DNA from: Haliotis asinina
Lineage: Eukaryota; Mollusca; Gastropoda; Lepetellida; Haliotidae
Length of the DNA: 64,000 nucleotides
Direction: 5' to 3'
Assembly (NCBI RefSeq): GCF_037392515.1
Contig: NC_090283.1
Span: 18,260,501-18,324,500, forward strand
In this document: one piece after another, positions 11,391 through 60,130 of the stretch
Numbering within the stretch: the stretch's first letter is position 1
Layout: each line of letters starts with the position of its first letter
Position numbers and translations under genes: made by a program
The notes under the pieces: model-generated
What the model saw: only the letters and a program-made list of their open reading frames with translations
Databases searched by the model: none
Told to the model about the DNA's origin: nothing

Positions 11391-11493
11391 ATTCCCACTA
11401 TGGAGTGGAGTTTAATGAACCCCATCGGTCTGTTCGAGACTGAGATTGGCTTTATGGCCAATGGGATATACTTCGTATCTGATGAATGTAAAG
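11391..11493 (+). CDS. tim: tim exon 1 of coding region (start codon)
   Basis: Acceptor ATTTGCAG ends at 11390; nine untranslated bases precede ATG at 11400. It encodes MEWSLMNPIGLFETEIGF..., which lines up with the MDW- start of insect TIM. The donor is G|GTGAGT at 11494 with one base carried over. The acceptor implies at least one upstream non-coding exon, which I could not locate. Confidence 0.85.
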
Positions 11494-26400: not shown

Positions 26401-29400
26401 AGAACATTCTCCAACATGTTGGAACAAAAACATCTTCTGTCAACTGTAAGTGTCTTTGATTTAAGCCGTCTGATGGTCATGCTAAGACATGAGTTCGTTT
26501 CCCCACATGGGAACAATGTATGAAGCCCATTTGTGGTGCTTCCCGCCATGATATTGCTGGAATATTGCTGAAAGTGGCAGAAGACCGTACTTAGTAAACA
26601 TGTTGATCAACTAATCAGAGATGCATGTAAATGTCCTGTCTTTATGAGGTTTCCTGTTTACCACAAACACACTTAAAATCATTAGTGAAAATTTGAACTG
26701 CATTCAAACAATCCCGCAGATGAAATATGTAAAGCTAGTTTCTCATGTTTAATTTTTTATTTTAAGTGACCTTGACCTTGACCTTGACCTTGATGAAATG
26801 TGTAATTCTGAATGTTGAACCACATGTAGATGAAAAATATGTTAACAAATTCAATTTACAGTATGGAATGTTGTTCCCTGACATACTGAACACCTTAGAT
26901 TTGAATTATTATTTAAACTTAAGTGTAGGAACTCAGATTTTTAGCCAAGGTCTGAACTTGCATCAGTTTGCTTATCCGTTGATTTAATGAATTTTACAAC
27001 AGTGAAATTTGTCTGTTAATGACTTTCCTGGAACTGACTCACTTGTGTGGATTGTAAAGTAGTCAAGAATAGATGGGTAGTTTGTTTGTTACCATAGACA
27101 CAACATCGTATTGCTTTGCATGAACAAGTAATGGAAGACGTACAATGTTTTTACTTCCCCATAGGTAAGGTGCATAGTATGGAATACATATGTAGCATAG
27201 CAGTGTTCACAGATTTTGCATAGCAAGGTACACAGTTGTTACTGTGTGGAATACACACGTCCTAGTCCAGATTGTGGAGAAAACTCCGGATTTGACATAT
27301 TCCACTGTACCTGGAGCATTCTTGACTGCAGTGAAGAATAACTCGAGCACACTCATGTTGCAGGATTTCAGTGATCTCATTGAATATGTGTTGGAACAGT
27401 TCATGATCTTTGCAGAAGAAAAACCTATCGCAACAGCTCAGATGCTCTTCGGTATCCAAGGAAAAGAGTGAGTGATAAGACAAGAAATATTTGTTAGTGG
27501 AAGCAATGACCTCACAACACAGAGTTGTCACCCTCTTAATGCTTCCAGGATCAAATGTGATTGATTCACATGACAATTATCAGGGGTTCAAAACTCTTTA
27601 AAAAGCCACTTGCCCCCAGGGCACTAATTTTCCACTAGATCTGATTTTTATGTCATGATCATAATGGTGACATTGTGAAAGAATACTATATTGGTGCAAA
27701 TGTTCACTGGACTGTTTATCGAGAAGTGATAAATAACAAAGAAAGATAGCTCTACTTTATTACCATTGCAAAATTTCATGTATTTGCAGTTTGAAACCAT
27801 GAGCGGAAATTATCTAGTTGTCCATGGACAAGAAAGATACTGTTATTTGATTGGCTGAAATGAAAATTGACTTCTGTTGGGCGTCGGGCAATGGGATTTT
27901 TGAACCCCTGATTATGAATGTGTAGCAGGACTTTTTCAGCTCTTGGTTGCAACCATGCTTAGGAATACAAGTGTATTTGATATATTGTATTTGTTGGTCA
28001 TGTACATCTAAAGCTGACAACAGAAGCAAACAAGCTGCACTACCAGTAATTACAATTTACAAACATTTATGTAAGATTATGATGTGTCTACCTCTTTTCG
28101 TGAGACATATTGTGACTCATGGATCCTGAAACATTGCAAAATTACGGTGGCAGATGGATGTGGCGGTGAATCAGGATATCTCAAATAAGTTTTTTTTCTT
28201 GGAAAAAAGGTCGGTGAAAGAACAAGGTGTGTGGTCGTCAGAGGAGGAGGAAGTGCTTATGTCGAGTATTCTCAGCCTCACTGAGAGCGACAACATCATT
28301 GCGGATCTCAGAGAAGCTCTGCTTCATACCGGCTTCGAGCGAACTGAAGATGAGGTGAGTTCCCTCGTTCCACTGTCTGACCCAGAGTTCCCCAAGCTGG
28401 CATTTGACAATTCTTTACATACTCCCACAGACTTCATTACCTAACAAAAGTAGTAGAATCTGGTATGGGCGAAATGGTATACCACAGTATTAGCAGAGCT
28501 TTGCCTATGGTATGGTATACCATAATTCAATCTAAAAATTCAATATTTTTAGTTTTTTTAACACTTCTTTTTATCTAGTCATAAAATGACAATTTCATTC
28601 ATTCAAAATAAGAGAGATAATGGTTATTTTTTTTTCCATGTTAGGCCAGACCAATTACATTTCTTTTATGGATCCACAGGTATTTTTCCAAGAATAAGAA
28701 GAAAATAAAAATAAATTTTCCCCTGCCAAAAAAACATATTCTAATGGTTTTTATAGGCCAAAAATGCAAACTTTCAAGAATATGTATTTTTTACATTGGA
28801 TCTTTTTTCTCCATATGCACTTCATAAATTGCCGAAAGTAAAATACTTTAGTTGTAAGAAAGAATATTATTTAGATTGGTGATTATATTTTTATTCCCAC
28901 CTTTAGGTTTTCTGAGTACAAGAATCTGTAAGACATGAAGTACAATTGGCCTTATCAAATGATATACGGTTTTGCTCTTGTCAGTTTTGTGTGTTATGAT
29001 GGTATGTCCTAATTAGAAATGAAATGGAGGCTTTACTTCAATATGTGCTTGACCATATTTTGTGTGTTTTGATCGTATGTCCTATTTAGATATGAAACGG
29101 AGACTTTATGGCAATATTACTTTACCATGTTAAAAGCATACTGTTTCACCCCAGGTATCTGTACTTTACTGAGAAAGTTTAATCCCAAATTTGACACGTG
29201 TTACATCAGTGTGCTTGGTGCAGATTGAACAGTTCATCAAAGACAGTGGCTGGCTGAAGGAAGACTCAATGATGGACACAATGGCCCCTTTGGGTAAAGA
29301 GGTAGGCGTACATTCTTGAGTAGAGCTGTGACGATATATCGTATCGATACTTACTGAACGCTAAATATATCGATCGTTCATGATATGTATCGTTGACTTT

Positions 29401-32400
29401 AAAATTGTTAATTTTCACTGGAAATTGACAGTTATGTCAAAATTTATCCTGTTACTTGATATACTTGCTGTCAGTTCCAAATACATTCCCGTGCTTCAAA
29501 TACTCAATAACACCCGGAAATTGGCCAACACATGATGTTTATCTCCAGAATGTTTCTTTGGTCCTGATGAGTATTGGTTTCGACAGCTTCACCATAGTTG
29601 CTGGAACGTTAGTGAGGGTGGCCTAGTGTTTGATGTGTTTGCTTGTCAGGCTGACGGTTCAGGTTTGATTGCTGACATCCATTTAGTCAAGCTGGAAGTG
29701 TTTCTTTTCCTTACTCTCTCAGCATGTCATCATAGGAGTATTCTCAAGTATGACGTTAGGCCCAATTTTACCTCACTTAGACCTGGAAAATATTCTAATC
29801 TTGGGAGATACAGTGATTGTGTTAATTTGACTGTGTGTGACCTTGCTTTGATATTTGTTGCAGAACACGCTGGAAGAAGACGAAAAGATGAGGATCATTG
29901 ATGAACTGTCCCAGGTACCGGAAGAAGATCTCATCGATCACCTCGTCTCACGACTAAAGAGCATCGGCCATGAGAAACACATCATATGGCTGCAAGAAAA
30001 CCTTTTTGAGGCGGCCAATGCGCGAAATTGTAAGTTTTCCATGCCAGTTTCCAACACTCTAGTATGATCGAGCTAAGGATAATTTGTGTTTGCCTATATG
30101 TTAATCTTATAACCTTGTGGACTGCATCACTTAGTGTTCTGTCTGATACTGTGGGCTTCATGCCCACAATGTCCTGTAAGGAACATGAATTTCCTGTGTG
30201 GTGATCAATTGTTTGAGGACTCAAGCATTGATTTTGTTCTGTGTGATCAAAGTAAAGGGCTTATAACCAACAAGAATCTCCTGGGCTTATAACCAACAAG
30301 AATCTCCTGTGTGGTGATCAAGTGTTTGAGGACTCAAGTATTGATTTTGTTCTGTGTGATCAAAGTAAAGGGCTTATAACCAACAAGAATCTCCTGGGCT
30401 TATAACCAACAAGAATCTCCTGTGCTGGTGATCAAGTGTTTGAGGACTCAAGCATTGATTTTGTTCTGTGTGATCAAAGTAAAGGGCTTATAACCAACAA
30501 GAATCTCCTGGGCTTATAACCAACAAGAATCTCCTGTGCTGGTGATCACGTGTTTGAGGACTCAAGCATTCATCTATGTGATCCCAGTAAAGGCTTGAAA
30601 TTATATGTGGTGTTTCAAACAAGTGACAAGGTGCAGCTCTCCTTGGAGGGGAAACTCTGGCTTGTGTCAGTAGAGTCCTCTCAGGTAAGAAATTTAGTTT
30701 TTGCAGAAATGGCTAAGTTTTGAGCCAGTGTCATTGATTCACTCACACCACAAGCATTAGGAGAGTTAGGAGAAAGTGTCTGCATAAATCTCCAGAACAG
30801 ATGTTAAGGACTGCAGTACAACATGGAGGCAAGGGACCGGACTCTGTCAGAAAGGCTCATTCTCGAGTGTCCGTGAATCCAAGGATTAGTCCAGGCATCT
30901 TGACAAGTTGCAGAAGACAACAAAGGATGAAGACACCGATGTTTAGTTCATCTGACAGGAGGGCAGAGGGAAAAAAGACACAGCTAAACTTCTCAAACCA
31001 AATGTCTGCTACTGAAGTGAACTTGCTGTGCATGCTGGCCTGGGGTTTGAAAAGAAAGTATGCAAAAGGAGATTAAAGAACACTTTCATTACGTGCACAA
31101 TGGTGTGGTTTTCAAAAGGGTACCCAGAAGTATGCAACAAGAGTTTAAAGAAAGCATAATTCGTCAGACAGGAATCTCCTGAGAAGAACTGAAGAGTTTG
31201 TGTTTTGATCCCAACAGAAAACTACAGGATCCAGTGATGCCTGTTAAGCCATCATGTAGAGCTCAACAAAGAGTCAAACCAAGAAATATGCAATGGAGTA
31301 AATTACTGTAGCAGGCTTTATGAGGCGATGGCAACTGATATGCACCATGAAGTTGGTTTCATTGGGACGTAATGCAAAAGTGTTTGATTAGAATGCCACA
31401 GTAACTCCAAGGCATTGTGATGCTATGCAGAAAGTATGATAAAGTACGGTTGGGCGCCTTTGATCTTCCACCAAAATGTATTCGAATTACATGTAGGTGT
31501 ATATCATTGGATTTTTTATAATGGTCTACAATGTGGCTTGCTGTTTATTGCTGATAATGACAATTCAAATTAACACAAGTGACTCCCTGGTTGATTGATC
31601 CCTTTACTCAGGGATTGATCCCCATGCATGACAAAACGTACCTATTTCTTCACATTGGCCACTCCATGTTTGTAAAATCAAATGTACAGGCATTCTCATT
31701 GATATTTGTTGTCAGCTGGACACTGACACTTTGACTGTTTGAGTCCAATATGGGGAGAGGATGTCGGATTGCTCAGATTGACAGTGTCTTAGGGACCAGA
31801 AAATGATGTCAGAATTCGGAATGTGCAGATGTTGGATAATTCAGTGTTTAAATGATGTTAATATAGAAGAACGCTGCTTTAACCCAAAATATGTCAGAAT
31901 TCACAGTTTGTCGGATAATCCAGTTGTCAGATTATACAGAACCAAATGTAGTTGCCAAACCTAAAGGAAAATCATACACAAGCATGGCAAAGACAAAAGA
32001 TTGTCTATCAGTTGAAACGATAGTTTGTAGAGCTTGTGATGTCATTCCTGATCAGGCTCATAAAAGTGCTGTTTCAGATAATCTTACTAATTGTAAAAAA
32101 AATCTTTCAAGGAGACACAATCTGATGTTGTACCTTGAATCTCATGAAGCTCTGAAACAGTTAGAGCTTTAAAGAATGAAGTTTGAAATTGTTTATTTAC
32201 TTTTGTTGATGGTTTTATCAAGTCTTTAAATGCAGAGTCTTTAAAAATGGGATACAGAACTTACTTAAATTTGCTGCGGAATTCTTCCTCTGCGGAATTG
32301 GCAGTGAAATTCAGGAGGGAGTGATAGACATTCATTTAGTCATGCCTCAGTTGTGGTGTGTTTGCTCATTGCTGATTGGACACATGAAGATTCGGATTAA

Positions 32401-35400
32401 AACTGATCTTAATTATCCCATGCTTGTTGTAAGATGTGAATAATAGGATCGGTTGGTCAGGCGTCAACCAGGTCACCGTATCCCAGTTTCGTAGATCGAT
32501 ACCTATGCTGTTGATCACTGGTCCAGACTCGATTATTTCCCACTGCCATCCAGCTGGAATATTGCTGACTGTGGTGTAAAATTGACCACACCAACTCACA
32601 CTCATTGCTAATTTATGAGGCATCCCTCAGTGATTTGTTTTTATTTTCAGGCATAATGGCGAACACAGTTGATTTAATACGGGAACCGGTCACCCGAATA
32701 TGTGCAAGTAAGTCATATCAGCTGAAAACACTTATAAACTGAGAAGATCTGGGTTAGAATTGATCTCAAGCTACCAAACCTAGGTGCAAAGGGGATCGGG
32801 TGGGTAGGGTCACTGATTTGTTTGATGCATGTCATTGCTTTCCAAATGGATGGATTGATGCTCATGATATCAATCAACAGATTAGATATTACCAGACATG
32901 CTTTTGCTCGTTTGATACCAAATCATTAACTTGTTTGATAAAAATGCACAGAAGGACGTATAGTATGTCTGATGCAAAGTTGTTCGAAGATGGCCCATAT
33001 ACAATTACATAGTTCCCACAAATACATAGTTCACATACAAATACATTGTGTCACATACAAATACATGGTTCCCACATATACAGTTATCCCATACAAGTAC
33101 ATTGTGTCACATACAAATACATGGTTCCCACATATACAGTTATCACATACAAATACATTGTGTCACATACAAATACATGGTTCCCACATACACAGTTATC
33201 ACATACAAATACATTGTGTCACATACAAATACATGGTTCCCACATATACAGTTATCACATACAAATACATTGTGTCACATACAAATACATGGTTATCACA
33301 TACAAATACGACATACCATACATAGTTATCACATACAAATACATTGTGTCACATACAAATACATAGTTCCCACATACAAATACAACAAACCATACATAGT
33401 TATCACATACAAATGCATTGTGTCACATACAAATACATTGTGTCACATACAAATACATAGTTCCCACATACAAATACAACATCGCATACATAGTTATCAC
33501 ATACAAATACATTGTGCCACTTGCAAATATATAGCTCCCACATACAAATACAACATTGTTTAATGATAGTTTTGCCAACTCGTTAACCAGCTTCCTGTTA
33601 CAAGGGCATCTGGGCAGTTACTGTCATCTGGTGACCAGTGTATTTTCTATTTCAGTCATGAAAAAGGACATTCCACTCATCTTTGTGACAGAGGAACACG
33701 AAAAGATATGTCATAATGTCTACTTCTTTGCTTTACTAAACACTCTGGATCTGAAGGTTGGATCAAGTAATGAACAGTTTGTGTTCCCAAGAGTGCCGTC
33801 TGATTGGTCGGCATCAGTCATTATTCAAAAGATGAAGATGTTGGGTCCAGTACCTGTTGGTAAGTGTTTTCATTATCAACCAGAGATGCCAAAACAATTT
33901 TAGAAAAGAATTCTGAATAAGGCCAGACCAGTTTTATTTCTTGTTTTAAGGCCCTCAAAAAACCGAGGGGATGGAGGGAAAAAAGTAAAAATATCACCAG
34001 TCAAAGGGATATTCTTTCTATAAACTCTTGAAGTATTTTACTTCGGACAATTTATGAAGTGTATGTGGGCCAAAATATTCTTAGAAGTTTACATTCTTGG
34101 CCAATAAACATACTGGTTTGACAGTTGGAGTTTATTTTCATTTGTTAAGTATTAATTTTATAAATACTGAATTTAAATGAATATTTTTTGCTCAAATTTT
34201 TCCCAGATGCTAGTTACTAGCCATTTTCAGTGGTGAGAAGACTTGAAGAAATTTCCCATGTATACAGTCTAAGTTACATTCCACTACTGAGTCTAACAAA
34301 ACCTTATGGGAGGTCTCGTCAGGTAACGTTTGAGATTGACCAATCAGAACACAGCTTATCAAATCGCAAAAGTGGACATTTGCACATACCTTTTGAATTT
34401 TTTATCTTGAAAGGGTGCGTACCCGAATGATTCCGAATGCTATTTAGTGTACGATCACGGCGCACATTACAACCATGACAATGGTGAGTAAAAAGTCTCT
34501 GAAAATAGTGTTTTGGCAATATGCAAGGATGTCATCTCGCGGAAATATTAGCTAATGGTAACCGTGTCAACAGAAACCCCAAAGCGTATATACCGCAAGT
34601 CAAATAACTGTTATATGCAGATTTTTGTTGTTAAAGAGATCTGTGTCAGTGACCTGAATATTGTGGAAGTCCCTCTGATCTCCAAGTAGTAACCGTTGTC
34701 TGATTGGTTAAATACTGTCTTGCTATTCATTGTGCTGTCGTAGGTTGCTCAAACATTACCCGACGTGACCTCCTCGTTTTTGTTAGACTCAGTGGTGGCA
34801 TGTAACAAAAAACACTTGAGACTAAGTTTTCTGAGACTGTCATGTATAATGAGTGAGCTGAAATTTCAAAATTTAAACATCATACCTACTTTTTGTAAAA
34901 GAACATGCAGAAGTGGATCAGGTGGAACAACTAGTTGTTCAGTTGTCTCAGGCAACGACTACCGGGCAAGAATTCCCTGCGTTTGAACCCAAACAGTCAA
35001 GGTAAAAAGTTTTCCTCACGTTAAGTTATTTTCATTGTCTGTTTTCCTGCTTAATTTTTTGACTTAACACACTGTAGTTTTCGTTTATTTTCTTTTTGTA
35101 CTTCATTGCACTTTTATAGTTACGTATGCTTACATAAGTATTGAAAGTTCCAAAGTGACTCTGTTTCATTGTGTGACCAAATAGTCGAAGGCGCTGTGAT
35201 TGACTGTGCTGAGTTCTGTCCCATCAAAAAGTCTTAAATTTTTTATCATGGGTTAGAGTTCTGGCTTGTTGCATGTTCCTTGGTTTGTTTTGCTCCATTA
35301 ACAGCCTGACAGTGTCTGGATTATCCAAACCCCCTCTACTGTATTTTTCATAATAATCTACAGTGCAAAATAATAAGGGTATTCCACCCTACAAGACAAA

Positions 35401-37059: not shown

Positions 37060-40000
37060 TGTATGTATGTATGTATGTATGTATGTATGTATGTATGTAT
37101 GTATGTATGTATGATTAATCTGCTTTAATGGACATGTATGTATGTATGTATGTATGTATGTATGTATGTATGTATGTATGTATGTATTGTTACCTGAGGG
37201 TGTCGGGTCCTGGTTATAGTATGTATGATTGATCTGCTTTAATGGACATACCCGTATGTATGTATATATGTATGAATGAATGAATGAGGTGCTTTAATGG
37301 ACAATACCCTGCTTGGTCTGTCTTACTAGATGTGCAGTCTTCATTGCAGCATGTGAGATGATGTGTGCATGTGAGAATGGAGGTTGTTCGTCAGAAAGGA
37401 AGCAGCACATGAGAATGGAGGTAGCACATGATAAGGAAGCACTTATAAAGGAAAGTAGCTAGAGCTGGTTTTGGTATACAACCTGAGATGCAATGTATCA
37501 TGATACCAAAATATTGCCAAAGTATTGTGCACTGTAACTGCAATATGACATGAATCCTAATATAAGGGTGGCGATACGATACATGTCATGATACTGAAAT
37601 CTTTAATTCTAACTCCAACTATGAAATACCTAGGTCACATGCAACATAAAACACAACTTTGCAGATTCTGATAACTTTTGGTATGCACTTACCAAAACAA
37701 ACATCAAAAATGCCAATTCAACCTGTAAAGTTGATAGAAAAAAGCCCCAAAATCAGAGTTCAAACGATTCACTCATTTTCCCCCAGCGCTGCGAGAAAAG
37801 TGGTTTCAAAAGCTATGCTGCGTTGCGCTCATAACACATGCACAGTGAATAGGTTTGTGGAGCTTGAAACAGTATGCTTGCCCCGAGTATGGGGTCGTGA
37901 GCAGTAGTCTAATCTTGGTTGTGTACATAAACAAGTAAATGATCATCTCTGCACATAAAAAAAAACATGGTGATTGTGATAAGCAAACTCTGTCACAGGG
38001 AAAATTCAGTGTTTGGTTTGTTGACACCTATATGTCTGCCTGTCTGCTAATGACAATTTGCACAACTTCAATTATTGCAATTTGAAAATAACTCTTATCA
38101 GGCTTATAAGCCATAAACAAAGACCTGACTAAGCGTATCGGCAATTGAACCAGTGGCCAATGACAAGGCGTCTTTACACATGAATGCACACCCACCGGCC
38201 CTGACTAGGTTCAGTATCCCGGCTGCTTCGTTTCAAGGGTGGTAAGCGCAAGTTCAAAATATTGCACTTTTAATTTGTGATTATACTCTTATAATTTTGT
38301 TTATTTGCTTATTTCACAATCACCAATGCATTTTATATATATCATGAACAAGTGATAACTGTGTTTTAGTTATGTTTGAGTATTTGGTTGCATGTGACCT
38401 TTAATATCAAAACACCAATTTTACAGTTTTTGTTCAGGGTTCATTCAGATACAAGCTAATTAAGTTAATACATGGGGAAGTAGCAGCACGTGAGAAGGGA
38501 AGTAGCAGCACGTGAGAGGGTTAGTAGCAGCACGTGAGAAGGGAAGTAGCAGCACGTGAGAGGGTTAGTAGCAGCACGTGAGAAGGGAAGTAGGAGCACG
38601 TGAGAGGGGAAGTAGCAGCACGTGAGAAGGGAAGTAGCAGCACGTGAGAGGGGAAGTAGCAGCACGTGAGAAGGGAAGTAGCAGCACGTGAGAAGGGAAG
38701 TAGGAGCACGTGAGAGGGGAAGTAGCAGCACGTGAGAAGGGAAGTAGCAGCACGTGAGAAGGGAAGTAGGAGCACGTGAGAGGGGAAGTAGCAGCACGTG
38801 AGAAGGGAAGTAGCAGCACGTGAGAAGGGAAGTAGGAGCACGTGAGAGGGGAAGTAGCAGCACGTGAGAAGGGAAGTAGCAGCACGTGAGAGGGTTAGTA
38901 GCAGCACGTGAGAAGGGAAGTAGGAGCACGTGAGAGGGGAAGTAGCAGCACATGAGAAGGGAAGTAGCAGCACGTGAGAGGGTTAGTAGCAGCACGTGAG
39001 AAGGGAAGTAGCAGCACGTGAGAGGGGAAGTAGCAGAGGGAAAGTAGCAGCACGTGAGAAGGGAAGTAGCAGCACGTGAGAGGGGAAGTAGCAGCACGTG
39101 AGGATGAAGTAGCTGCACATTAGAGGGGAAGTGGTAGCATGTGTGGAGGGAGACAGTCAGTGTTCATACAGACACATAGGAAAGGGAAGTTTTTCACCAA
39201 GCTTCATGTTAACTTTGCTAGCTTCTCATGCCACAAGATCTTGCAATGTTTTTACCTTGCTGTAATAACTTGCTGTTCCCAAGCTTATTATGTTGTCGCT
39301 ATGTCAAATGTTTGCAACTGAGAGAGGGTTAGTAGCAGCACATGAGAGGGGAAGTAGCATCATGTTAGAGGGGAAGTAGCAGCACGTGAGAGGGTTAGTA
39401 GCAGCACGTGAGAGGGGAGAAGATCTTGCATTGTTTGTACTTTGCTGTAATAACTTGCTGTTCCCAAGCTTATTATGTTGTCACAGTTTCAAATGTTTGC
39501 AACTGAGAGAGGGTTAGTAGCAGCATGTGAGAGGGTTAGTAGCAGCACGTGAGAGGGTTAGTAGCAGCGCGTTAGAGGTTTAGTAGCAGCACGTGAGAGG
39601 GGAAGAAGATCTTGCATTGTTTGTACTTTGCTGTAATAACTTGCTGTTCCCAAGCTTATTATGTTGTCGCTATGTCAAATGTTTGCAACTGAGAGAGGGT
39701 TAGTAGCGGCACGTGAGAGGGAAGTAGCAGCATGTGAGAGGGTTAGTAGCAGCATGTGAGAGGGGAAGAAGATCTTGCATTGTTTGTACTTTGCTGTAAT
39801 AACTTGCTGTTCCCAAGCTTATTATGTTGTCGCTGTGTCAAATGTTTGCAACTGAGAGAGGGTTAGTAGCAGCACGTGAGAGGGTTAGTAGCAGCACGTG
39901 AGAGGGAAGTAGCAGCATGTGAGAGGGTTAGTAGCAGCACGTGAGAGGGAAGTAGCAGCATGTGAGAGGGTTAGTAGCAGCACGTGAGAGGGTTAGTAGC

Positions 40001-43000
40001 AGCATGTGAGAGGGAAGTAGCAGCATGTGAGAGGGGAAGTAGCAGCACGTGAGAGGGTTAGTAGCAGCACGTGAGAGGGGAAGAAGATCTTGCATTGTTT
40101 GTACTTTGCTGTAATAACTTGCTGTTCCCAAGCTTATCATGTTGTCGCTATGTCAAATGTTTGCAACTGAGAGAGGGTTAGTAGCAGCATGTGAGAGGGA
40201 AGTAGCAGCACGTGAGAGGGGAAAAGATCTTGCATTGTTTGTACTTTGCTGTAATAACTTGCTGTTCCCAAGCTTATCATGTTGTCGCTATGTCAAATGT
40301 TTGCAACTGAGAGAGGGTTAGTAGCAGCACGTGAGAGGGAAGTAGCGGCACGTGAGAGGGGAGAAGATCTTGCATTGTTTGTACTTTGCTGTAATAACTT
40401 GCTGTTCCCAAGCTTATTATGTTGTCGCTGTGTCAAATGTTTGCAACTGAGAGAGGGTTAGTAGCAGCACGTGAGAGGGTTAGTAGCAGCACGTGAGAGG
40501 GAAGTAGCAGCATGTGAGAGGGTTAGTAGCAGCAAGTGAGAGGGTTAGTAGCAACACGTGAGAGGGAAGTAGCAGCATGTGAGAGGGTTAGTAGCAGCAC
40601 GTGAGAGGGTTAGTAGCAGCATGTGAGAGGGGAAGTAGCAGCACGTGAGAGGGTTAGTAGCAGCACGTGAGAGGGGAAGAAGATCTTGCATTGTTTGTAC
40701 TTTGCTGTAATAACTTGCTGTTCCCAAGCTTATTATGTTGTCGCTGTGTCAAATGTTTGCAACTGAGAGAGGGTTAGTAGCAGCACGTGAGAGGGTTAGT
40801 AGCAGCACGTGAGAGGGAAGTAGCAGCATGTGAGAGGGAAGTAGCAGCATGTGAGAGGGTTAGTAGCAGCACGTGAGAGGGTTAGTAGCAGCACGTGAGA
40901 GGAAAGTAGCAGCATGTGAGAGGGTTAGTAGCAGCACGTGAGAGGGTTAGTAGCAGCACGTGAGAGGGAAGTAGCAGCATGTGAGAGGGGAAGTAGATCT
41001 TGCATTGTTTGTACTTTGCTGTAATAACTTGCTGTTCCCAAGCTTATGTTGTCGCTATGTCAAATGTTTGCAACTGAGAGAGGGTTAGTAGCAGCATGTG
41101 AGAGGGGAAGTAGCAGCACGTGAGAGGGTTAGTAGCAGCACGTGAGAGGGGAGAAGATCTTGCATTGTTTGTACTTTGCTGTAATAACTTGCTGTTCCCA
41201 AGCTTATTATGTTGTCGCTGTTTCAAATGTTTGCAACTGTGAGAGGGTTAGTAGCAGCACGTGAGAGGGTTAATAGCAGCACGTTAGAGGGAAGTAGCAG
41301 CATGTGAGAGGGAAGTAGCAGCATGTGAGAGGGTTAGTAGCAGCATGTGAGAGGGTTAGTAGCAGCATGTGAGAGGGAAGTAGCAGCATGTGAGAGGGTT
41401 AGTAGCAGCACGTGAGAGGGTTAATAGCAGCACGTTAGAGGGTTAATAGCAGCACGTTAGAGGGTTAATAGCAGCACGTTAGAGGGTTAGTAGCAGCACG
41501 TGAGAAGGGAAGTAGGAGCACGTGAGAGGGGAAGTAGCAGCACGTGAGAAGGGAAGTAGCAGCACGTGAGAAGGGAAGTAGGAGCACGTGAGAGGGGAAG
41601 TAGCAGCACGTGAGAAGGGAAGTAGCAGCACGTGAGAAGGGAAGTAGGAGCACGTGAGAGGGGAAGTAGCAGCACGTGAGAAGGGAAGTAGCAGCACGTG
41701 AGAGGGTTAGTAGCAGCACGTGAGAAGGGAAGTAGGAGCACGTGAGAGGGTTAGTAGCAGCACATGAGAAGGGAAGTATCAGCACGTGAGAGGGTTAGTA
41801 GCAGCACGTGAGAAGGGAAGTAGCAGCACGTGAGAGGGGAAGTAGCAGAGGGAAAGTAGCAGCACGTGAGAAGGGAAGTAGCAGCACGTGAGAGGGGAAG
41901 TAGCAGCACGTGAGGATGAAGTAGCTGCACATTAGAGGGGAAGTGGTAGCATGTGTGGAGGGAGACAGTCAGTGTTCATACAGACACATAGGAAAGGGAA
42001 GTTTTTCACCAAGCTTCATGTTAACTTTGCTAGCTTCTCATGCCACAAGATCTTGCAATGTTTTTACCTTGCTGTAATAACTTGCTGTTCCCAAGCTTAT
42101 TATGTTGTCGCTATGTCAAATGTTTGCAACTGAGAGAGGGTTAGTAGCAGCACATGAGAGGGGAAGTAGCATCATGTTAGAGGGGAAGTAGCAGCACGTG
42201 AGAGGGTTAGTAGCAGCACGTGAGAGGGGAGAAGATCTTGCATTGTTTGTACTTTGCTGTAATAACTTGCTGTTCCCAAGCTTATTATGTTGTCACAGTT
42301 TCAAATGTTTGCAACTGAGAGAGGGTTAGTAGCAGCATGTGAGAGGGTTAGTAGCAGCACGTGAGAGGGTTAGTAGCAGCGCGTTAGAGGTTTAGTAGCA
42401 GCACGTGAGAGGGGAAGAAGATCTTGCATTGTTTGTACTTTGCTGTAATAACTTGCTGTTCCCAAGCTTATTATGTTGTCGCTATGTCAAATGTTTGCAA
42501 CTGAGAGAGGGTTAGTAGCGGCACGTGAGAGGGAAGTAGCAGCATGTGAGAGGGTTAGTAGCAGCATGTGAGAGGGGAAGAAGATCTTGCATTGTTTGTA
42601 CTTTGCTGTAATAACTTGCTGTTCCCAAGCTTATTATGTTGTCGCTGTGTCAAATGTTTGCAACTGAGAGAGGGTTAGTAGCAGCACGTGAGAGGGTTAG
42701 TAGCAGCACGTGAGAGGGAAGTAGCAGCATGTGAGAGGGTTAGTAGCAGCACGTGAGAGGGAAGTAGCAGCATGTGAGAGGGTTAGTAGCAGCACGTGAG
42801 AGGGTTAGTAGCAGCATGTGAGAGGGAAGTAGCAGCATGTGAGAGGGGAAGTAGCAGCACGTGAGAGGGTTAGTAGCAGCACGTGAGAGGGGAAGAAGAT
42901 CTTGCATTGTTTGTACTTTGCTGTAATAACTTGCTGTTCCCAAGCTTATCATGTTGTCGCTATGTCAAATGTTTGCAACTGAGAGAGGGTTAGTAGCAGC

Positions 43001-46000
43001 ATGTGAGAGGGAAGTAGCAGCACGTGAGAGGGGAAAAGATCTTGCATTGTTTGTACTTTGCTGTAATAACTTGCTGTTCCCAAGCTTATCATGTTGTCGC
43101 TATGTCAAATGTTTGCAACTGAGAGAGGGTTAGTAGCAGCACGTGAGAGGGAAGTAGCGGCACGTGAGAGGGGAGAAGATCTTGCATTGTTTGTACTTTG
43201 CTGTAATAACTTGCTGTTCCCAAGCTTATTATGTTGTCGCTGTGTCAAATGTTTGCAACTGAGAGAGGGTTAGTAGCAGCACGTGAGAGGGTTAGTAGCA
43301 GCACGTGAGAGGGAAGTAGCAGCATGTGAGAGGGTTAGTAGCAGCAAGTGAGAGGGTTAGTAGCAACACGTGAGAGGGAAGTAGCAGCATGTGAGAGGGT
43401 TAGTAGCAGCACGTGAGAGGGTTAGTAGCAGCATGTGAGAGGGGAAGTAGCAGCACGTGAGAGGGTTAGTAGCAGCACGTGAGAGGGGAAGAAGATCTTG
43501 CATTGTTTGTACTTTGCTGTAATAACTTGCTGTTCCCAAGCTTATTATGTTGTCGCTGTGTCAAATGTTTGCAACTGAGAGAGGGTTAGTAGCAGCACGT
43601 GAGAGGGTTAGTAGCAGCACGTGAGAGGGAAGTAGCAGCATGTGAGAGGGAAGTAGCAGCATGTGAGAGGGTTAGTAGCAGCACGTGAGAGGGTTAGTAG
43701 CAGCACGTGAGAGGGAAGTAGCAGCATGTGAGAGGGTTAGTAGCAGCACGTGAGAGGGTTAGTAGCAGCACGTGAGAGGGAAGTAGCAGCATGTGAGAGG
43801 GGAAGTAGATCTTGCATTGTTTGTACTTTGCTGTAATAACTTGCTGTTCCCAAGCTTATGTTGTCGCTATGTCAAATGTTTGCAACTGAGAGAGGGTTAG
43901 TAGCAGCATGTGAGAGGGGAAGTAGCAGCACGTGAGAGGGTTAGTAGCAGCACGTGAGAGGGGAGAAGATCTTGCATTGTTTGTACTTTGCTGTAATAAC
44001 TTGCTGTTCCCAAGCTTATTATGTTGTCGCTGTTTCAAATGTTTGCAACTGTGAGAGGGTTAGTAGCAGCACGTGAGAGGGTTAATAGCAGCATGTGAGA
44101 GGGAAGTAGCAGCATGTGAGAGGGTTAGTAGCAGCATGTGAGAGGGTTAGTAGCAGCATGTGAGAGGGAAGTAGCAGCATGTGAGAGGGTTAGTAGCAGC
44201 ACGTGAGAGGGTTAATAGCAGCACGTTAGAGGGTTAATAGCAGCACGTTAGAGGGTTAATAGCAGCACGTTAGAGGGTTAATAGCAGCATGTGAGAGGGT
44301 TAGTAGCAGCACGTGAGAGGGTTAGTAGCAGCACGTGAGAGGGGAAGTAGCAGCACGTTAGAGGGTTAATAGCAGCACGTTAGAGGGTTAATAGCAGCAC
44401 GTTAGAGGGTTAATAGCAGCACGTGAGAGGGTTAGTAGCAGCACGTGAGAGGGGAAGTAGCAGCACGTGAGAGGGGAAGAAGATCTTGCAATGTTTTTAC
44501 CTTGCTGTAATAACTTGCTGTTCCCAAGCTTATTATATTGTCCCTATGTCAAACGTTTGCAACTGAGTGCTCACACTACCATTGTTTGAACATGTTTTTA
44601 TTTTTGTTGTGTGATATGCGTTATACAGACTACACTGGCTATGAAGAACACCAATATTTGTCCAGGACAATTTAGGTGCTATGACTGTCAAGTCTGAAAA
44701 ATATAAGGAAATGTCAAGAAATGAATACATGTCCATTTAACAACTATGTACATAAATGACAGAATATAATTTAACATATACTTAACAATTAAAAAGAAAT
44801 TAATCCAGATGAGCAGACCTTGCCTCATGTCAAAATACATGCCACGTTTGCGCTTCACTTCACACAATCAGCAAAAGTTCAAAGCTTTGCATGAATAAGT
44901 CAGTCAATTTTGTGCTGATTTAGTTGGTTCGTTTGTAAAATTTACCATCCAAAACTGGAATCCGAATATCTGTCATGGACAGGCTCCATTATAACATAAG
45001 AGATGTGTCTTTTTTTAAAGAAAATTGTCAGGATGTGGAGGTTTCCAGATATTTGGGCTTCCAGGTTGGAAATAACCCATTGCCTGACATCCCAGTCCAG
45101 TGTGTTTTTCTTTCGGGCAAGCCAATTTGTCTGTCACGCTGTACTGTGGCCCGTTGATTGTCCATTGTTCAGGATGTTCTTTATTTTTTAAAATCAAAAC
45201 GAAAAAGGGCAGGAATAGTGGACAAATTATCAGGTCAAGTGACTTTATATGTGCCACTGTACCAGAGTACACAAGCAATTTCAAACTTATTTCCACCCGT
45301 GATATTTACTGAATAGGGTTAGGCATTAAGGCGTGCTTGTCACACCCTCCAGAGTCAACACTGGCACCATAGATTCAACACTTGATTTCACTCTAACCAG
45401 TCGTTTGTATTGGAGCTTGTTCAGTGCCATGTGTATCCCGTTCTCGTGTTAACAGCAAGGCAAAATTGTCTCATTGACTTCTGACACCCGTGATCAAAGC
45501 ATTGGACAACCTGTGCCATTGCTCTTCCCGCTGGTGCGCAGTTCTTAAACATTCTAGGGTTAATGTCTCAAGGCATGAATACTTCTTCCAAGAACATCCA
45601 AATGGGTGTGTTTTACTGGCATTTATCTTAGCTTGAAGACTTGATTACTGCAGGTATTTGGACAAAATTCATTTTACACCCGGACTTTCTCATGGCTCTA
45701 TCTCTCTATCTATCTCTCTTGTCTACCTTCCTTCCCTCTTTCTCACGTCTTTCCTCCCCTCTTCCCTGCCTCTCTCTTCTTTGATGTCTCTCTCTCTTGG
45801 GTTTGCTTGTAACGTCAAAGACCCTGAAACTGTCTGATTTTGGCAGCTTCACTAATCATAAGGTCTGACAGGATATTGAGTCAAGTATGAGGTATGGTAT
45901 TTTATGTATGGCCTTGCAGTCATCTAATCGCTTGTGCATAGTTGTGTCCCCTGTTAGTGCTTGTATCCTCAGTTTGTTGGTTCAAGTCAAAATGGGTACA

Positions 46001-46155
46001 TTTTAATGTTTCGAATAACATAACGTCTTTCTTCTTTTTTCTGCAGTTCTATGAAAGAGGTGAAACTCCCAGAGAAAGAATGGATATCATGTGTTCAGGA
46101 AGCCAATAAGTACCAAGAATCTCAACAGCTCCAGTTAACCATGGAAACGAACTGA
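11400..46155 (+). CDS. tim: TIMELESS, circadian clock protein (dTIM-type), 22 coding exons
   Basis: Clock protein that in insects pairs with PERIOD, enters the nucleus and represses CLOCK/CYCLE; light resets it through cryptochrome. Exons: 11400-11493, 12746-12840, 13267-13328, 15114-15291, 15778-15896, 16338-16398, 17848-17901, 20725-21026, 22254-22323, 22583-22695, 23895-24008, 24905-25005, 25772-25964, 26247-26445, 27364-27467, 28210-28354, 29224-29301, 29864-30029, 32651-32707, 33656-33859, 34911-35001, 46047-46155. The sum is 2709 nt, 902 residues plus stop, every junction in phase. Family blocks seen: NYCLLLIRNL (N-terminal armadillo part), SFFLRFARQ, LRDVFVLLLRQ, ECILTMMHHIAGD, FSDLIEYVLEQF, HIIWLQENLF. 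These resemble insect clock TIM more than the replication-fork paralogue (TIMEOUT/mammalian TIMELESS). It is much shorter than Drosophila TIM (about 1400 residues), mainly because the region between residues 221 and 322 is short. Exact exon 5 and exon 8 edges are the least certain. Confidence 0.9.
11499..11910 (-). mobile_element. MITE beginning at the tim exon 1 donor
   Basis: Starts TACGGTAAACTG right after GTGAG of the donor. It contains ATTTTCGCGAGTGATGACCA and ends with CATGAAGTCTGACGCGAAATT. It is the reverse-orientation relative of 23028-23555; edges are approximate. Confidence 0.6.
12746..12840 (+). CDS. tim: tim exon 2
   Basis: Residues 32-63, ETLQEMLNLLLTS...GQHDVIRK. Acceptor TTTTCAG, donor AAG|GTTAGT. 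It matches the family's helical N-terminus (…RR.LG..…VRSDLIPLL block shared with exon 3). Confidence 0.85.
13267..13328 (+). CDS. tim: tim exon 3
   Basis: Residues 64-83, DLLPLLMALEEDSELFHAAI. DLLPLL is a conserved TIMELESS word. Acceptor TTTCAG, donor GA|GTAAGT, two bases carried over. Confidence 0.85.
14012..14353 (-). mobile_element. TIR element (intron 3), relative at 57611-57940
   Basis: Ends GTGTTCATGAATAGTGT and ACACCATTCATGAACAC are inverted repeats. The interior matches the second copy in reverse orientation. Confidence 0.7.
14517..14575 (+). repeat. degenerate copy A of the exon 4 acceptor region
   Basis: CACTAACTGCAGCACCTTGT, then CATGGTGTGC and TTTTTCATTCAG|AATAATCT. It resembles 15071-15121, and a SINE is inserted right after it. 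Confidence 0.7.
14568..14850 (+). mobile_element. family-B SINE-like repeat in tim intron 3
   Basis: Full length, from CCGTGAAGGTCCCAGGGTAG to CTCACTCACTCACT. It is inserted in copy A of the duplicated exon 4 acceptor. Confidence 0.9.
14865..14930 (+). repeat. degenerate copy B of the exon 4 acceptor region
   Basis: GTACTAACTGCAG..., TTTTCATTCAG|ACTACTCTGC. It shares ACTACTCT with the true exon start at 15114. The frame after this acceptor reaches a stop (TAG) at about 15078 without a donor. Confidence 0.75.
14939..15018 (+). repeat. ~80-base dispersed module, copy 2
   Basis: CGGTTCCAAATGCATTCCCG ... AATTGGCCAACACATGATGT. It sits between two copies of the exon 4 acceptor duplication. Confidence 0.85.
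15114..15291 (+). CDS. tim: tim exon 4
   Basis: Residues 84-143, starting ELLSLLTQPLSLG, which corresponds to the RILVNLTVP block of insect TIM, and ending KEVMNRLER. Acceptor CCCCTCAG, donor AGG|GTTGGT. Two upstream degenerate copies of its acceptor region exist (14517-14575 and 14865-14930). Confidence 0.85.
15398..15575 (+). mobile_element. family-B repeat, degenerate, in tim intron 4
   Basis: GGTGACTGACAGGATTGGGT and GTTGATCACTAGATTGTCTG. Confidence 0.75.
15778..15896 (+). CDS. tim: tim exon 5 (tandem donor; may end at 15902)
   Basis: Residues 144-182; includes INYCLLLIRNLFYFGE, a hallmark TIMELESS motif. There are two GT donors six bases apart (after 15896 and after 15902). Both keep phase and differ by inclusion of Leu-Arg. 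Confidence 0.85.
16098..16337 (+). repeat. 46-47-base tandem repeat ending at tim exon 6 acceptor
   Basis: Five units, each with TGTATAGGGCGATATTTGAG, starting at 16104, 16151, 16198, 16244 and 16290 (GGG position). The sixth unit is the real acceptor and the first codons of exon 6 (TCTGTAGGATGATATTTGAG). Confidence 0.9.
16338..16398 (+). CDS. tim: tim exon 6
   Basis: Residues 183-203, MIFESGLDEMIMAVIRHQQK. Acceptor TTCTGTAG, donor AAG|GTGAGA. The 5' edge of this exon is the last unit of a 46-47-base tandem repeat that fills the end of the intron. Confidence 0.8.
16538..16795 (+). mobile_element. family-B SINE-like repeat in tim intron 6
   Basis: CAGGGTAGAATAGGCCTTCA to GTGTGGCGTAAAAG; the 30-base minisatellite begins at its tail. 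Confidence 0.88.
16798..17560. repeat. ~30-base minisatellite in tim intron 6
   Basis: Degenerate unit GTAAGAGGCTACCGAGGTAC CTTGCTGTTT, about 24 copies. Open frames on both strands reading VRGYQGTLLF or its equivalents are repeat artefacts. Confidence 0.9.
17848..17901 (+). CDS. tim: tim exon 7
   Basis: Eighteen codons, ISFTVSVVQILSFLYKDN, matching the VTMVQLIALIYKDQ block of insect TIM. Acceptor TGTTTCAG, donor AAT|GTAAGT. A MITE starts about 34 bases beyond the donor. Confidence 0.85.
17935..18442. mobile_element. MITE in tim intron 7
   Basis: Terminal inverted repeats TACTCTTTAAAAAAAGTAGG and its complement ending TTTTTTTTTAAGAGTA. A related fragment lies at about 53580-53770. It is bounded by TA, as in Tc1/mariner-type elements. 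Confidence 0.75.
18453..18840. mobile_element. MITE in tim intron 7, next to the previous one
   Basis: Inverted ends CAGTACCTGGCCAAAAGTGA and TCACTTTTGGCAAGGTGCTG, extended by matching arms GAAATTTCCATAG and CTATGGAAATTTC. Confidence 0.8.
18841..20724 (+). other. tim intron 7, remainder
   Basis: AT-rich; no recognisable repeat beyond two MITEs at its start. A missed phase-0 exon is possible. Confidence 0.5.
20725..21026 (+). CDS. tim: tim exon 8 (variable linker)
   Basis: Residues about 222-321, polar linker rich in Ser, Glu and Asp (PERASEYSSEEQCLQAM, SSPDDIEDPTVQ). It replaces the several-hundred-residue acidic/NLS region of insect TIM. The start is uncertain: acceptor TTTGAAG gives 20725, and an in-frame CTGCAG gives 20743, six residues shorter. 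Donor GG|GTGAGT. A further phase-0 exon in the preceding intron cannot be excluded. Confidence 0.7.
21428..21524. mobile_element. short inverted-repeat element in intron 8
   Basis: TCCTTTCACAAAGC and GCTTCATGAAAGGA ends, with inner AAGGTAACCTTAG and GGTTAACCTTAG words. Confidence 0.5.
22254..22323 (+). CDS. tim: tim exon 9
   Basis: Residues 322-345, QYLTNLAQKFLSDGYAGFIADLL, aligned with the LKEFTVDFLLKGYSYLVEEL block. Acceptor TTTTTTTTCAG, donor TTG|GTGAGT. Confidence 0.85.
22583..22695 (+). CDS. tim: tim exon 10
   Basis: Residues 346-382, with NSYLLWSISFFLRFARQQ matching the DTSHFFWLVTYFLKFAAQ block. The longest open frame across this exon is a different, non-coding one. Donor chosen as CTTGT|GTAAGT because only that phase continues into exon 11 without a stop. 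Confidence 0.85.
23028..23555 (+). mobile_element. MITE in tim intron 10, same family as 11499-11910
   Basis: Imperfect inverted ends: TACTGTAAACAGCCAAATTT against the GGAAATAAAACTGTTAACAG end, with CGCGAAAAT words inside both arms. The interior matches the intron 1 copy on the opposite strand. Confidence 0.65.
23588..23830 (+). mobile_element. family-B SINE-like repeat in tim intron 10
   Basis: GATCCAGGGTGGAATAAGTC to AACTCACTCACTC, directly after the 23028-23555 MITE and about 65 bases before exon 11. Confidence 0.85.
23895..24008 (+). CDS. tim: tim exon 11
   Basis: Residues 383-420, including ISYLVYVAVDCCERQ, aligned with the SYLTYEGVSLCEQLE block. Acceptor CATTTCAG, donor AA|GTGAGT. Confidence 0.85.
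24545..24870 (+). mobile_element. family-C tRNA-derived SINE in tim intron 11
   Basis: Head CCTCCTTGGTGTAGTTGTTA, box B GGGTTTGATCCC. It ends GAAATATTCTTAAGTGCGAA and GTTAAACTCA about 50 bases before exon 12. Confidence 0.8.
24905..25005 (+). CDS. tim: tim exon 12
   Basis: Residues 421-454, LHLTVLSMIQLFRLML..., aligned with the MHLVVTAIREFLQ block. Acceptor GTTGCAG, donor AAAG|GTAAGA. Confidence 0.85.
25772..25964 (+). CDS. tim: tim exon 13
   Basis: Residues 455-518. It carries the most diagnostic block, LRDVFVLLLRQ...YLRNLICANHHLLLILE, very close to insect TIM. Acceptor TTTGTAG, donor AA|GTGAGA. Confidence 0.92.
26247..26445 (+). CDS. tim: tim exon 14
   Basis: Residues 519-585, FATLEIMAKYGQ...LNECILTMMHHIAGD. 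The TMMHHI(A/G)GD motif is strongly conserved in TIM. Acceptor TTTGTAG, donor ACT|GTAAGT. Confidence 0.92.
26475..26600 (+). mobile_element. family-A SINE in tim intron 14
   Basis: CCCCACATGGGAACAATGTA, CTTCCCGCCATGATATTGCT and GGAATATTGCTGAAAGTGG. Confidence 0.8.
26767..26794 (-). promoter_or_regulatory. array of nuclear-receptor half-sites (TCAAGGTCA) in tim intron 14
   Basis: Four head-to-tail TGACCT hexamers (GACCTT period 6) read on the minus strand as overlapping TCAAGGTCA words, the extended half-site of ROR/ERR/FTZ-F1 receptors. It could equally be a simple hexamer microsatellite. Confidence 0.4.
27364..27467 (+). CDS. tim: tim exon 15
   Basis: Residues 586-619, DFSDLIEYVLEQFMIFAEEKP, matching DWSDLIEYVIHKFM of insect TIM. 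Acceptor GTTGCAG, donor GA|GTGAGT. Confidence 0.9.
27581..27910. mobile_element. 330-base MITE in tim intron 15
   Basis: Inverted ends CAGGGGTTCAAAA and TTTTTGAACCCCTG, with further arm similarity. The flanks read ATTAT on both sides, a plausible 5-base target duplication. Confidence 0.75.
28210..28354 (+). CDS. tim: tim exon 16
   Basis: Residues 620-668, including GVWSSEEEEVLMSSILSL, matching the C.WSQEEMDTLYW block. Acceptor is GGAAAAAAG, a weak purine-rich site behind a T-rich tract; donor GAG|GTGAGT. Confidence 0.8.
28640..28860 (+). repeat. dispersed repeat, relative of 33915-34110
   Basis: Both copies have AGGCCAGACCA, TTTATTTCTT-like, a GGCCAAAAAT or TGGGCCAAAAT word and a TAAATTGCCGAAAGTAAAAT-like end. 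Confidence 0.5.
29224..29301 (+). CDS. tim: tim exon 17
   Basis: Residues 669-694, IEQFIKDSGWLKEDSMMDTM..., in place of the IIQQLLQQDII helix. Acceptor GGTGCAG, donor GAG|GTAGGC. Confidence 0.8.
29468..29546 (+). repeat. ~80-base dispersed module, copy 3
   Basis: CAGTTCCAAATACATTCCCG ... ATTGGCCAACACATGATGTT, in tim intron 17. A MITE-like ACGATATATCGTATCGATAC palindrome lies just before it, at 29328-29395. Confidence 0.85.
29608..29800 (+). mobile_element. family-A SINE, degenerate, in tim intron 17
   Basis: GGGTGGCCTAGTGTTTGATG head, GTTCAGGTTTGATTGC box B; it ends about 60 bases before exon 18. Confidence 0.55.
29864..30029 (+). CDS. tim: tim exon 18
   Basis: Residues 695-749, including LIDHLVSRLKSIGHEKHIIWLQENLF, aligned with the HLLWLQRILIE block. 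Acceptor TTGTTGCAG, donor AATT|GTAAGT. Confidence 0.88.
30178..30600. repeat. 113-114-base tandem repeat in tim intron 18
   Basis: Units begin GTGATCAA(G/T)TGTTTGAGG at 30201, 30314, 30428 and 30542. Each contains a nested doublet of CTTATAACCAACAAGAATCT. Confidence 0.9.
32030..32300 (+). repeat. old dispersed repeat, relative of 8930-9200
   Basis: See 8930-9200 for shared words. The small open frame across it has no recognised product. Confidence 0.6.
32380..32610 (+). mobile_element. family-B repeat in tim intron 18
   Basis: GATCGGTTGGTCAGGCGTCA, GCTGTTGATCACTGG and GGAATATTGCTGACTGTGG; it ends just before exon 19. Confidence 0.8.
32651..32707 (+). CDS. tim: tim exon 19
   Basis: Residues 750-768, IMANTVDLIREPVTRICA, corresponding to the HIMEPVAYHCIC block. 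Acceptor TTTTCAG, donor GCAA|GTAAGT. It follows a family-B SINE by only about 40 bases. Confidence 0.82.
32745..32900 (+). mobile_element. family-B repeat, degenerate, in tim intron 19
   Basis: GATCTGGGTTAGAATTGATC and GGGGATCGGGTGGGTAGGGT words; starts about 38 bases after exon 19. Confidence 0.65.
32998..33555. repeat. minisatellite of CACATACAAATACAT units in tim intron 19
   Basis: Higher-order unit of about 56 bases (CACATACAAATACATTGTGT, CACATACAAATACATGGTTC, CCACATATACAGTTAT), degenerating to the right. It ends about 100 bases before exon 20. Open frames in three frames are artefacts. Confidence 0.9.
33656..33859 (+). CDS. tim: tim exon 20
   Basis: Residues 769-836, ending PRVPSDWSASVIIQKMKMLGP, which matches the C-terminal RIPDYW...LAKKLGP of insect TIM. 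Acceptor TATTTCAG, donor GTTG|GTAAGT. Confidence 0.88.
33915..34110 (-). repeat. dispersed repeat, relative of 28640-28860
   Basis: Partly palindromic family, so its orientation is uncertain. Confidence 0.45.
34911..35001 (+). CDS. tim: tim exon 21 (91 bases, hidden)
   Basis: Found by phase. Exon 20 leaves one base while the terminal exon needs two, so a middle exon of length 1 mod 3 is required. Acceptor ACATGCAG|AAG and donor AAG|GTAAAA bound a frame reading VDQVEQLVVQLSQATTTGQE and ending FEPKQS. Joining it restores a frame to the final stop. A skipped or alternative exon remains possible. Confidence 0.75.
35460..35720. repeat. ~92-base tandem repeat, three copies
   Basis: Each copy has GGGTACCCATTATCTGC, GGTGAACAATGCCTGTGG and GTCAACATTCAAGAT words. 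A SINE fragment follows. Confidence 0.8.
35725..35840 (+). mobile_element. family-A SINE fragment
   Basis: ACCCAGGTTCGCTTCCTCAT, GGGTACAATGTGTGAAGCC. Confidence 0.7.
36195..36405 (-). mobile_element. family-B repeat in tim intron 21
   Basis: Complement strand; TGTGATCAAGAGCATGAGCA and AATGGGTTGCTGAAGGCC. Confidence 0.8.
36844..36896. repeat. (TG)n(AG)n microsatellite
   Basis: Uninterrupted TG run followed by GA run in tim intron 21. Confidence 0.95.
37028..37186. repeat. (ATGT)n microsatellite, two blocks
   Basis: Two long pure ATGT runs separated by ATGATTAATCTGCTTTAATG; further degenerate units extend to about 37290. Confidence 0.95.
37632..38402 (-). mobile_element. non-autonomous TIR transposon in tim intron 21
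   Basis: Ends AGGTCACATGCAA and TTGCATGTGACCTTT. It is a longer relative of 7918-8543 and lies directly before the E-box satellite. Confidence 0.78.
38680..41280. repeat. satellite block, copy 1 of a 2812-base-offset duplication
   Basis: Aligns at a constant offset of 2812 with 41492-44090. From about 38970 onward I saw only a few differences, for example GGAAAG against GGGAAG at about 40911 and loss of one 21-base unit near 44090 in copy 2. Confidence 0.85.
41492..44090. repeat. satellite block, copy 2 of the duplication
   Basis: Near-identical to 38680-41280, including the unique inserts around 39139-39321 and 41951-42133 that are not part of the 22-base unit. This implies recent unequal exchange or an assembly duplication. 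Confidence 0.85.
45695..45802 (+). repeat. pyrimidine-rich tract upstream of the last tim exon
   Basis: CTCTATCTCTCTATCTATCT and similar CT-rich sequence, about 245 bases before the exon 22 acceptor. Confidence 0.7.
45826..45988 (+). repeat. 163-base direct repeat, copy 1
   Basis: About 97% identical by eye to 47872-48034 (five mismatches seen). It ends in a tRNA-like box B word (GGTTCAAGTC). It lies just before tim exon 22. Confidence 0.88.
46047..46155 (+). CDS. tim: tim exon 22, terminal (stop codon)
   Basis: Acceptor TTTTTTCTGCAG. It encodes SMKEVKLPEKEWISCVQEANK, ends LQLTMETN and then TGA at 46153-46155. It lies about 11 kb beyond exon 21, past the E-box satellite. I do not recognise this tail from insect TIM. 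The frame fits only if exon 21 is included. Confidence 0.72.
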
Positions 46156-56574: not shown

Positions 56575-56725
56575 TGGAGGACTAAATAAGTTTAGACCAG
56601 ACAATCCAGTGAACAACAGCATGAGCATTGATCTATGCAGCTGGGATGTCAGCAACCCTGACCATCCAATCCTGTGAGTCACTGTTTACGCCACGAATTG
56701 GTTGCTGAAGATAAATTCTACTCCA
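56575..56725 (-). mobile_element. family-B repeat, partial
   Basis: Complement strand; AGACCAGACAATCCAGTGAA and GACCATCCAATCCTGTGAGT. Confidence 0.75.
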
Positions 56726-56774
56726 TATCTTTATGTCTGCAGACAGACAGACTGACTGACTGCGTGAGTGAATC

Positions 56775-57000
56775 TAGTTTAACACCGCTCTCAGCAATAT
56801 TCCAGCTATATGGCAGCGGTCTGTATATAATTGAGTCTGGACCACACAATCCAGTGATCAACAGCATGAACATCGATCTGCGCAATTGGGAACTGACGAT
56901 ATGTGTCAGCGATCCTGGCCACCCGATCCCGTTAGTCGCCTCTTAAGACAAGTATGGGTTGATGAAGGCCTATTCTACCCAGGACCTTCAGGGGTCCTGA
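56775..57000 (-). mobile_element. family-B repeat
   Basis: Complement strand, near complete; AACACCGCTCTCAGCAATAT to TACCCAGGACCTTCAGG. Confidence 0.9.
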
Positions 57001-59947: not shown

Positions 59948-60130
59948 TTATGTTGTTATCCTTGTACAATCTCGTCATTATGTTATCCTTGTACATTCTC
60001 GTCATTATGTGTCTATCCTTGTACATTCTCGTCATTATGTTATCTTTGTACGTTCTCATCATTATGTTGTTATCCTTGTACATTCTCGTCATTATGTTGT
60101 TATCCTTGCACATTCTCGCCATTAGATATG
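59948..60130. repeat. ~30-base minisatellite
   Basis: Unit TTATCCTTGTACATTCTCGT plus CATTATG(TTG), about six copies. The open frames on both strands here are repeat artefacts. Confidence 0.85.

Follow-up and report, generated by a model that had tools for sequence, protein, structure and literature searches.

Two described systems resemble the element reported here, an array of CACGTG E-boxes that probably lies in an intron of the clock gene timeless (tim) of the gastropod Haliotis asinina. The array was analysed within a stretch of 64,000 nucleotides (positions 18,260,501 to 18,324,500 of contig NC_090283.1, RefSeq assembly GCF_037392515.1), which we call the window and in which positions are counted unless stated otherwise. 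The first system is the tandem E1-E2 element of BMAL1/CLOCK, which consists of two boxes with a main spacer of 6-7 bp. Rey et al. (2011) report that the activity of paired E-boxes in the mouse is lost at a spacer of 10 bp and regained at 16-17 bp (17 according to a legend), and that intronic Rev-Erb sites contain a 16-bp element (PMC3043000). The tim array shares with this system neighbouring E-boxes in one orientation, a 16-bp spacer close to the active 16-17 bp and the existence of intronic examples, but it comprises 110 boxes and its motif is decaying. The second system comprises regulatory intronic minisatellites such as the variable-number tandem repeat in intron 2 of the serotonin transporter gene (PMC8239992, PMC6287221). 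Here, too, repeats a few tens of bp long follow one another within an intron and are proposed to carry transcription-factor sites. Unlike such repeats, the tim array has far more copies and a higher-order structure that includes what appears to be a captured unique spacer, and it has been seen in one assembly. With regard to molluscan clocks, an oyster study groups oyster Timeless with insect and crustacean Timeless and places E-boxes near cry2, cry1 and period (PMC5224872).

Literature searches found no report joining satellite DNA with CACGTG E-boxes. Searches on intronic E-box minisatellites and circadian regulation returned plant papers only, and those on abalone timeless or abalone satellites gave nothing useful for the array. 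The tim array is a further case of a known kind, a local minisatellite confined to a single locus, and it is very probably neutral, having expanded within tim with its E-boxes as passengers.

Organization and genomic confinement of the array

The window contains 119 CACGTG hexamers where dinucleotide shuffles of the same sequence predict 7.58 (sd 2.54), and 110 of them fall between 38,487 and 44,469 while only nine are spread over the other 58 kb. Fuzzy matching of a 17-mer core located 175 units, whose start-to-start steps (n=174) are 22 bp in 121 cases, 21 bp in 31, 117-120 bp in 18, 36 bp in two and 223 bp in two; the steps of 117-120 bp contain a spacer. A first-pass annotation of this DNA had described about a hundred CACGTG motifs in units of 21-22 bases, and the array is confirmed as described. 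The same annotation had the motif recurring through most of ~6 kb of tim; this has to be qualified, since an 88-bp stretch free of E-boxes recurs among the units in 21 copies. The layout is that of a spacer-free 5' block followed by groups of units parted by this stretch. Because the terminal spacer copy (44480-44567, 93% identity) has diverged further than the other 20 and continues into unique sequence, the spacers may represent the captured 3' flank, amplified along with the units.

A large block within the array is present twice, and the two copies differ by 4 mismatches in 2605 bp, which suggests a recent change of the array. The same near-identity could be read as a partial assembly artefact, in which one 2.6-kb block, for example from two haplotypes, has been counted twice. 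We consider this unlikely, as the unit blocks that border the two copies are not the same; it would lower the count from ~110 to ~76 CACGTG and leave the nature of the array unchanged. Outside the array, the stretch at 37,345-37,440 scores 37 for kinship to the units, against a top score of 21 among 1886 other 120-base windows and of 35 among 500 Markov resamples made from that stretch. Its kinship as an old outlier of the array is therefore only suggestive.

In the genome of 1,143 Mb, the exact 19-mer core of the unit has 67 matches, all 67 in the tim array (reversed control 0), and the 21 genome matches of the 88-bp spacer are likewise all found there. When up to three mismatches are allowed, the core is matched 263 times on the forward and 84 times on the reverse strand (control 35 and 24). 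This leaves a forward excess of 179, close to the number of units in the tim array, and among the matches listed every one with at most one mismatch lies in it. A dispersed or centromeric satellite is ruled out by the restriction of exact core and spacer to the tim locus. The first-pass annotation had named scattering of the satellite over the genome as an outcome that would speak against its proposal, and on this point the result is in its favour. Head-to-tail units of 21-22 bp, inside the minisatellite range of ~10-60 bp, at one locus characterize the array as a single-locus minisatellite.

E-box decay, spacing and possible functions

The hexamer of the 175 units reads CACGTG in 110, CATGTG in 43, CACGTT in 10, CACATG in 4, and CACATT, CATGTT, CGCGTT and CAAGTG in 2 each, so that 65 units are without CACGTG and 51 of these carry CpG transitions (CATGTG, CACATG, CATGTT, CACATT). 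Transitions at CpG are the expected product of methylated-CpG decay. Mean identity over the units is 0.932 for the hexamer and 0.968 for the remaining core positions, and the C of the CpG is the lowest position of all (0.731, or 0.765 with one duplication copy omitted). When each of the 26 unit types is counted once, identity is 0.77 at the CpG C, 0.85 at the CpG G and 0.81 at the last G, while the other 11 core positions range from 0.88 to 1.00 except position 17 (0.77). Within the tim array, therefore, no sign that selection keeps the motif is seen, the hexamer being the less conserved part of the unit.

Clusters of E-boxes are also common elsewhere. Genome-wide there are 1571 CACGTG triples with 10-30-bp gaps and 1568 triples of the reversed hexamer, with GACGTC and CTGCAG at 1179 and 2573, respectively; 38 of the 1571 belong to tim. 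A genome-wide preference for CACGTG clusters is rejected by the comparison with the reversed hexamer. Among the matches listed, at least 10 loci occur over the first 39.3 Mb of sequence C1, a density of ~1 cluster per 4 Mb, which gives any one 50-kb gene a chance of ~1%. Apart from tim, a pair of E-box arrays was characterized as minisatellites, one of 29-bp units from C1:39,273,890 on (CACGTG in 51 of 63 units, 52 boxes in total) and one of 22-bp units from C11:54,013,581 on (27 of 41 units, 27 boxes). Both resemble the tim array in being tandem units each with CACGTG, and the C11 array also shares the 22-bp period, but their units are unrelated to those of tim and their boxes are fewer. Tandem arrays of at least 300 bp are present in 5 of the 14 stretches of 10 kb (140 kb in total) that served as control sample.

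Because conservation is lower in the hexamer than elsewhere in the unit and CACGTG clusters do not outnumber those of the reversed hexamer, the explanation that the first-pass annotation had offered as its null, the amplification of a unit containing the hexamer by chance, is the best supported, and the evidence for a function of the E-box array is weak. In such a history a 21-22-bp unit with CACGTG would have been amplified in tandem, presumably by slippage or unequal exchange. The adjoining 88-bp unique flank would then have been captured and co-amplified as a higher-order repeat, and a block of 2.6 kb duplicated very recently (four differences), with the E-boxes carried passively, probably under no selected function, and decaying mainly at CpG.

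Several observations weigh against a neutral expansion. Insect tim is driven through CACGTG, and the array is located in this very clock gene. CACGTG is retained in 63% of the units, including 27 of the 29 units of the 5' block, and loss in some units is compatible with the function of a redundant array. Among the 26 unit types, variability at position 17, which is not part of the hexamer, equals that at the CpG C, and the decay counts rest on related units that are copies of each other and not independent events. The C1 and C11 arrays preserve the hexamer at least as well as the bases around it, and their CpG is more intact than that of tim, so an E-box array in this genome does not automatically lose its CpGs. 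Single CACGTG hexamers are rarer than GTGCAC in the control sample (16 vs 28), and CACGTG clusters could for this reason be in mild relative excess that the equal genome-wide counts mask. Runs of at least four CACGTG at an exact 22-bp period give 46 matches at three loci (27 in tim, 18 on C11 and 1 on C3; control 12), although for tim to be one of three such loci would be striking only had 22 bp been named beforehand, which it was not. Finally, 60 of the 109 adjacent CACGTG pairs in the array have a 16-bp spacer, and the longest run comprises 21 boxes.

This spacing bears on the possibility, raised by the first-pass annotation, that the array is an intronic enhancer. As a clock enhancer it would let dimers of CLOCK and CYCLE (BMAL) bind neighbouring E-boxes cooperatively over the 16 bp between them, and copy number would set how strongly they raise or time the transcription of tim. 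No two CACGTG of the array start less than 21 bp from each other, and the 6-7-bp spacing of E1-E2 is found in none of its pairs; the 14 genome-wide CACGTG triples at 6-7 bp (control 8) are all outside tim, and canonical triples were rejected. The alternative active spacing of 16-17 bp is the one that the 60 pairs match, and since it is close to the mammalian value the geometry of the array is, by analogy, permissive for binding of CLOCK/BMAL pairs. The mouse pairs that regain activity at this distance, the intronic 16-bp element of Rev-Erb in the same study (PMC3043000) and the rarity of exact-22-bp arrays, of which the largest is in tim, all speak for an enhancer. However, the poorer conservation of the hexamer, the lack of a genome-wide cluster excess and a separate candidate promoter cluster upstream of tim speak against it, and the spacing data are mammalian, so that binding in a mollusc is argued by analogy. 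On balance we regard an intronic enhancer as quite unlikely. Its more specific form, a length-variable enhancer in which cooperative CLOCK/CYCLE pairs on dozens of 16-bp-spaced boxes would determine tim level, amplitude or phase, differ between individuals by repeat number and be tuned by CpG decay in its number of active sites, appears distinctly improbable. If it were true, a mollusc would naturally possess a clock enhancer that is tunable by copy number.

The array may also act without any recognition of the E-boxes. Its G-rich, self-complementary transcript might change how tim is spliced or elongated or how it forms R-loops, or nucleosomes might be positioned by the repeat, as the first-pass annotation had also suggested. 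The transcribed units are predicted to fold more favourably than shuffled sequence (z=-4.95, 132 nt) and the plus strand is G-rich, with a GC skew of 0.35-0.46 over the array, but any tandem palindrome would fold in this way, and the window contains no Rfam family. A search of the window for tRNAs was likewise negative. Such an effect on RNA or chromatin is very unlikely.

A further proposal of the first-pass annotation was that the array is a titrating decoy, which would keep CLOCK/CYCLE, MYC/MAX, USF or MITF-type factors from binding elsewhere. The 110 perfect sites in 6 kb would favour it, but the 16 CACGTG of the 140-kb control extrapolate to ~130,000 in the genome, to which the array adds less than 0.1%, and gene-body CpG methylation, as the decay pattern suggests it, would further block binding. 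The decoy was rejected on these numbers, which make it extremely improbable, and literature searches on decoys gave nothing useful for the array. Under the neutral expansion that we favour, a repeat has by chance put more than 100 perfect transcription-factor motifs into the 'right' gene, which would be a caution for arguments from motif density.

Host gene, upstream cluster and neighbouring features

The first-pass annotation had assigned the array to timeless, and homology searches bear this out. Six spliced exons (25,683-30,029) match Drosophila TIM (8dd7) with E=1.6e-29 and 106.7 bits, best over positions 33-237 of the query (length 324). Human TIMELESS is matched with E=3.3e-8 and 36.7 bits. 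Because these central exons are closer to the Drosophila protein, the gene is by its central part predicted to be the circadian, insect-type timeless. The PAB exon (33,656-33,859) carries the Pfam domain TIMELESS_C (E=1.3e-6) and was the only one of nine pieces scanned (eight candidate exons plus a further open frame) to pass the Pfam cut-off; searched alone, it matches human TIMELESS entries only, and weakly (E=0.034). It is the last exon identified by homology before the array. As it ends in a donor (GTAAGT) and the sole candidate final exon found (46,047-46,155) lies beyond the array, the array sits probably in a 3' intron of tim. At the other end of the gene, the coding start at 11,400 and the exons at ~12,746-12,840 and ~13,267-13,328 are presumed to encode the TIM N-terminus. 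The coordinates of these and other features are collected in Table 1.

Table 1. Features of the tim window and of two E-box arrays elsewhere in the genome.
Feature	Position	Strand	Remarks
E-box minisatellite array	38475..44475	+	~175 units of 21-22 bp, 110 perfect CACGTG
5' block of array	38475..39130	+	22-bp units without spacer
Large internal duplication, copy 1	38677..41281	+	2605 bp, 4 mismatches vs copy 2
Large internal duplication, copy 2	41489..44093	+	offset 2812 from copy 1
Recurrence range of 88-bp E-box-free spacer	39235..44567	+	21 copies
Possible diverged older units	37345..37440	+	four CANNTG, all CATGTG or CACATG
tim first coding exon	11391..11493	+	ATG at 11400, preceded by splice acceptor; presumed TIM N-terminus, without tool match
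Putative tim N-terminal exons	~12,746-12,840, ~13,267-13,328	+	presumed, without tool match
Putative tim exon	15778..15896	+	weak TIMELESS match, E=0.17
Six tim exons, span	25683..30029	+	boundaries by GT/AG and reading frame, +/-1
Six tim exons, coordinates	25683-25964, 26247-26445, 27364-27467, 28210-28354, 29224-29301, 29864-30029	+	
tim PAB exon (TIMELESS_C)	33656..33859	+	ends in GTAAGT donor
Candidate terminal tim exon	46047..46155	+	CTGCAG acceptor, stop TGA; without homology support; frame requires a further small exon upstream
Other minisatellites in or near tim	16797-17556, 30182-30570, 32999-33556, 59947-60362		unrelated units of 30, 114, 56/74 and 30 bp
Interspersed repeat, perhaps SINE-like	4226-4423, 14542-14772, 16513-16728, 56662-56943		recurring pseudo-translation GPDNPVINNMSIDLHNWE and other strand
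Open frame, 941 codons, rich in charged residues	60587-63409	-	probably neighbouring gene
29-bp array on C1	offsets 885-2752 of C1:39,273,001-39,279,000		52 CACGTG
22-bp array on C11	offsets 1080-2068 of C11:54,012,501-54,015,500		27 CACGTG

Upstream of the gene, 13.7 kb 5' of the tim ATG, a cluster of the form CACGTG-9bp-CACGTT-10bp-CACGTG (starts 15 and 16 bp apart) occupies offsets 7689-7725 of C4:18,250,501-18,260,500, and a GTAAGT follows beyond it at offset 7866. Among 20 stretches examined, three-site clusters within 60 bp were found in this one and in one more, and in the window they are confined to the array. The cluster is a candidate tim promoter, through which clock control would be simpler to achieve. 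Since a splice acceptor lies just before the first coding exon, tim may plausibly have a distant non-coding first exon. Further upstream, C4:18,230,501-18,250,500 contains 11 single CACGTG in 20 kb, which are not in tandem, vs 16 in the 140-kb control.

The other minisatellites of the tim window contain a single CACGTG (at 30547). The interspersed repeat GPDNPVINNMSIDLHNWE also occurs in the lysin locus of the genome. Egg-lysin genes (PF01303) give six matches on C14, with a best E of 2.9e-12, and none in 14 control genomes; presumably such egg lysins are those of abalone. One translated exon matches sperm lysin structures (E=1.5e-11).

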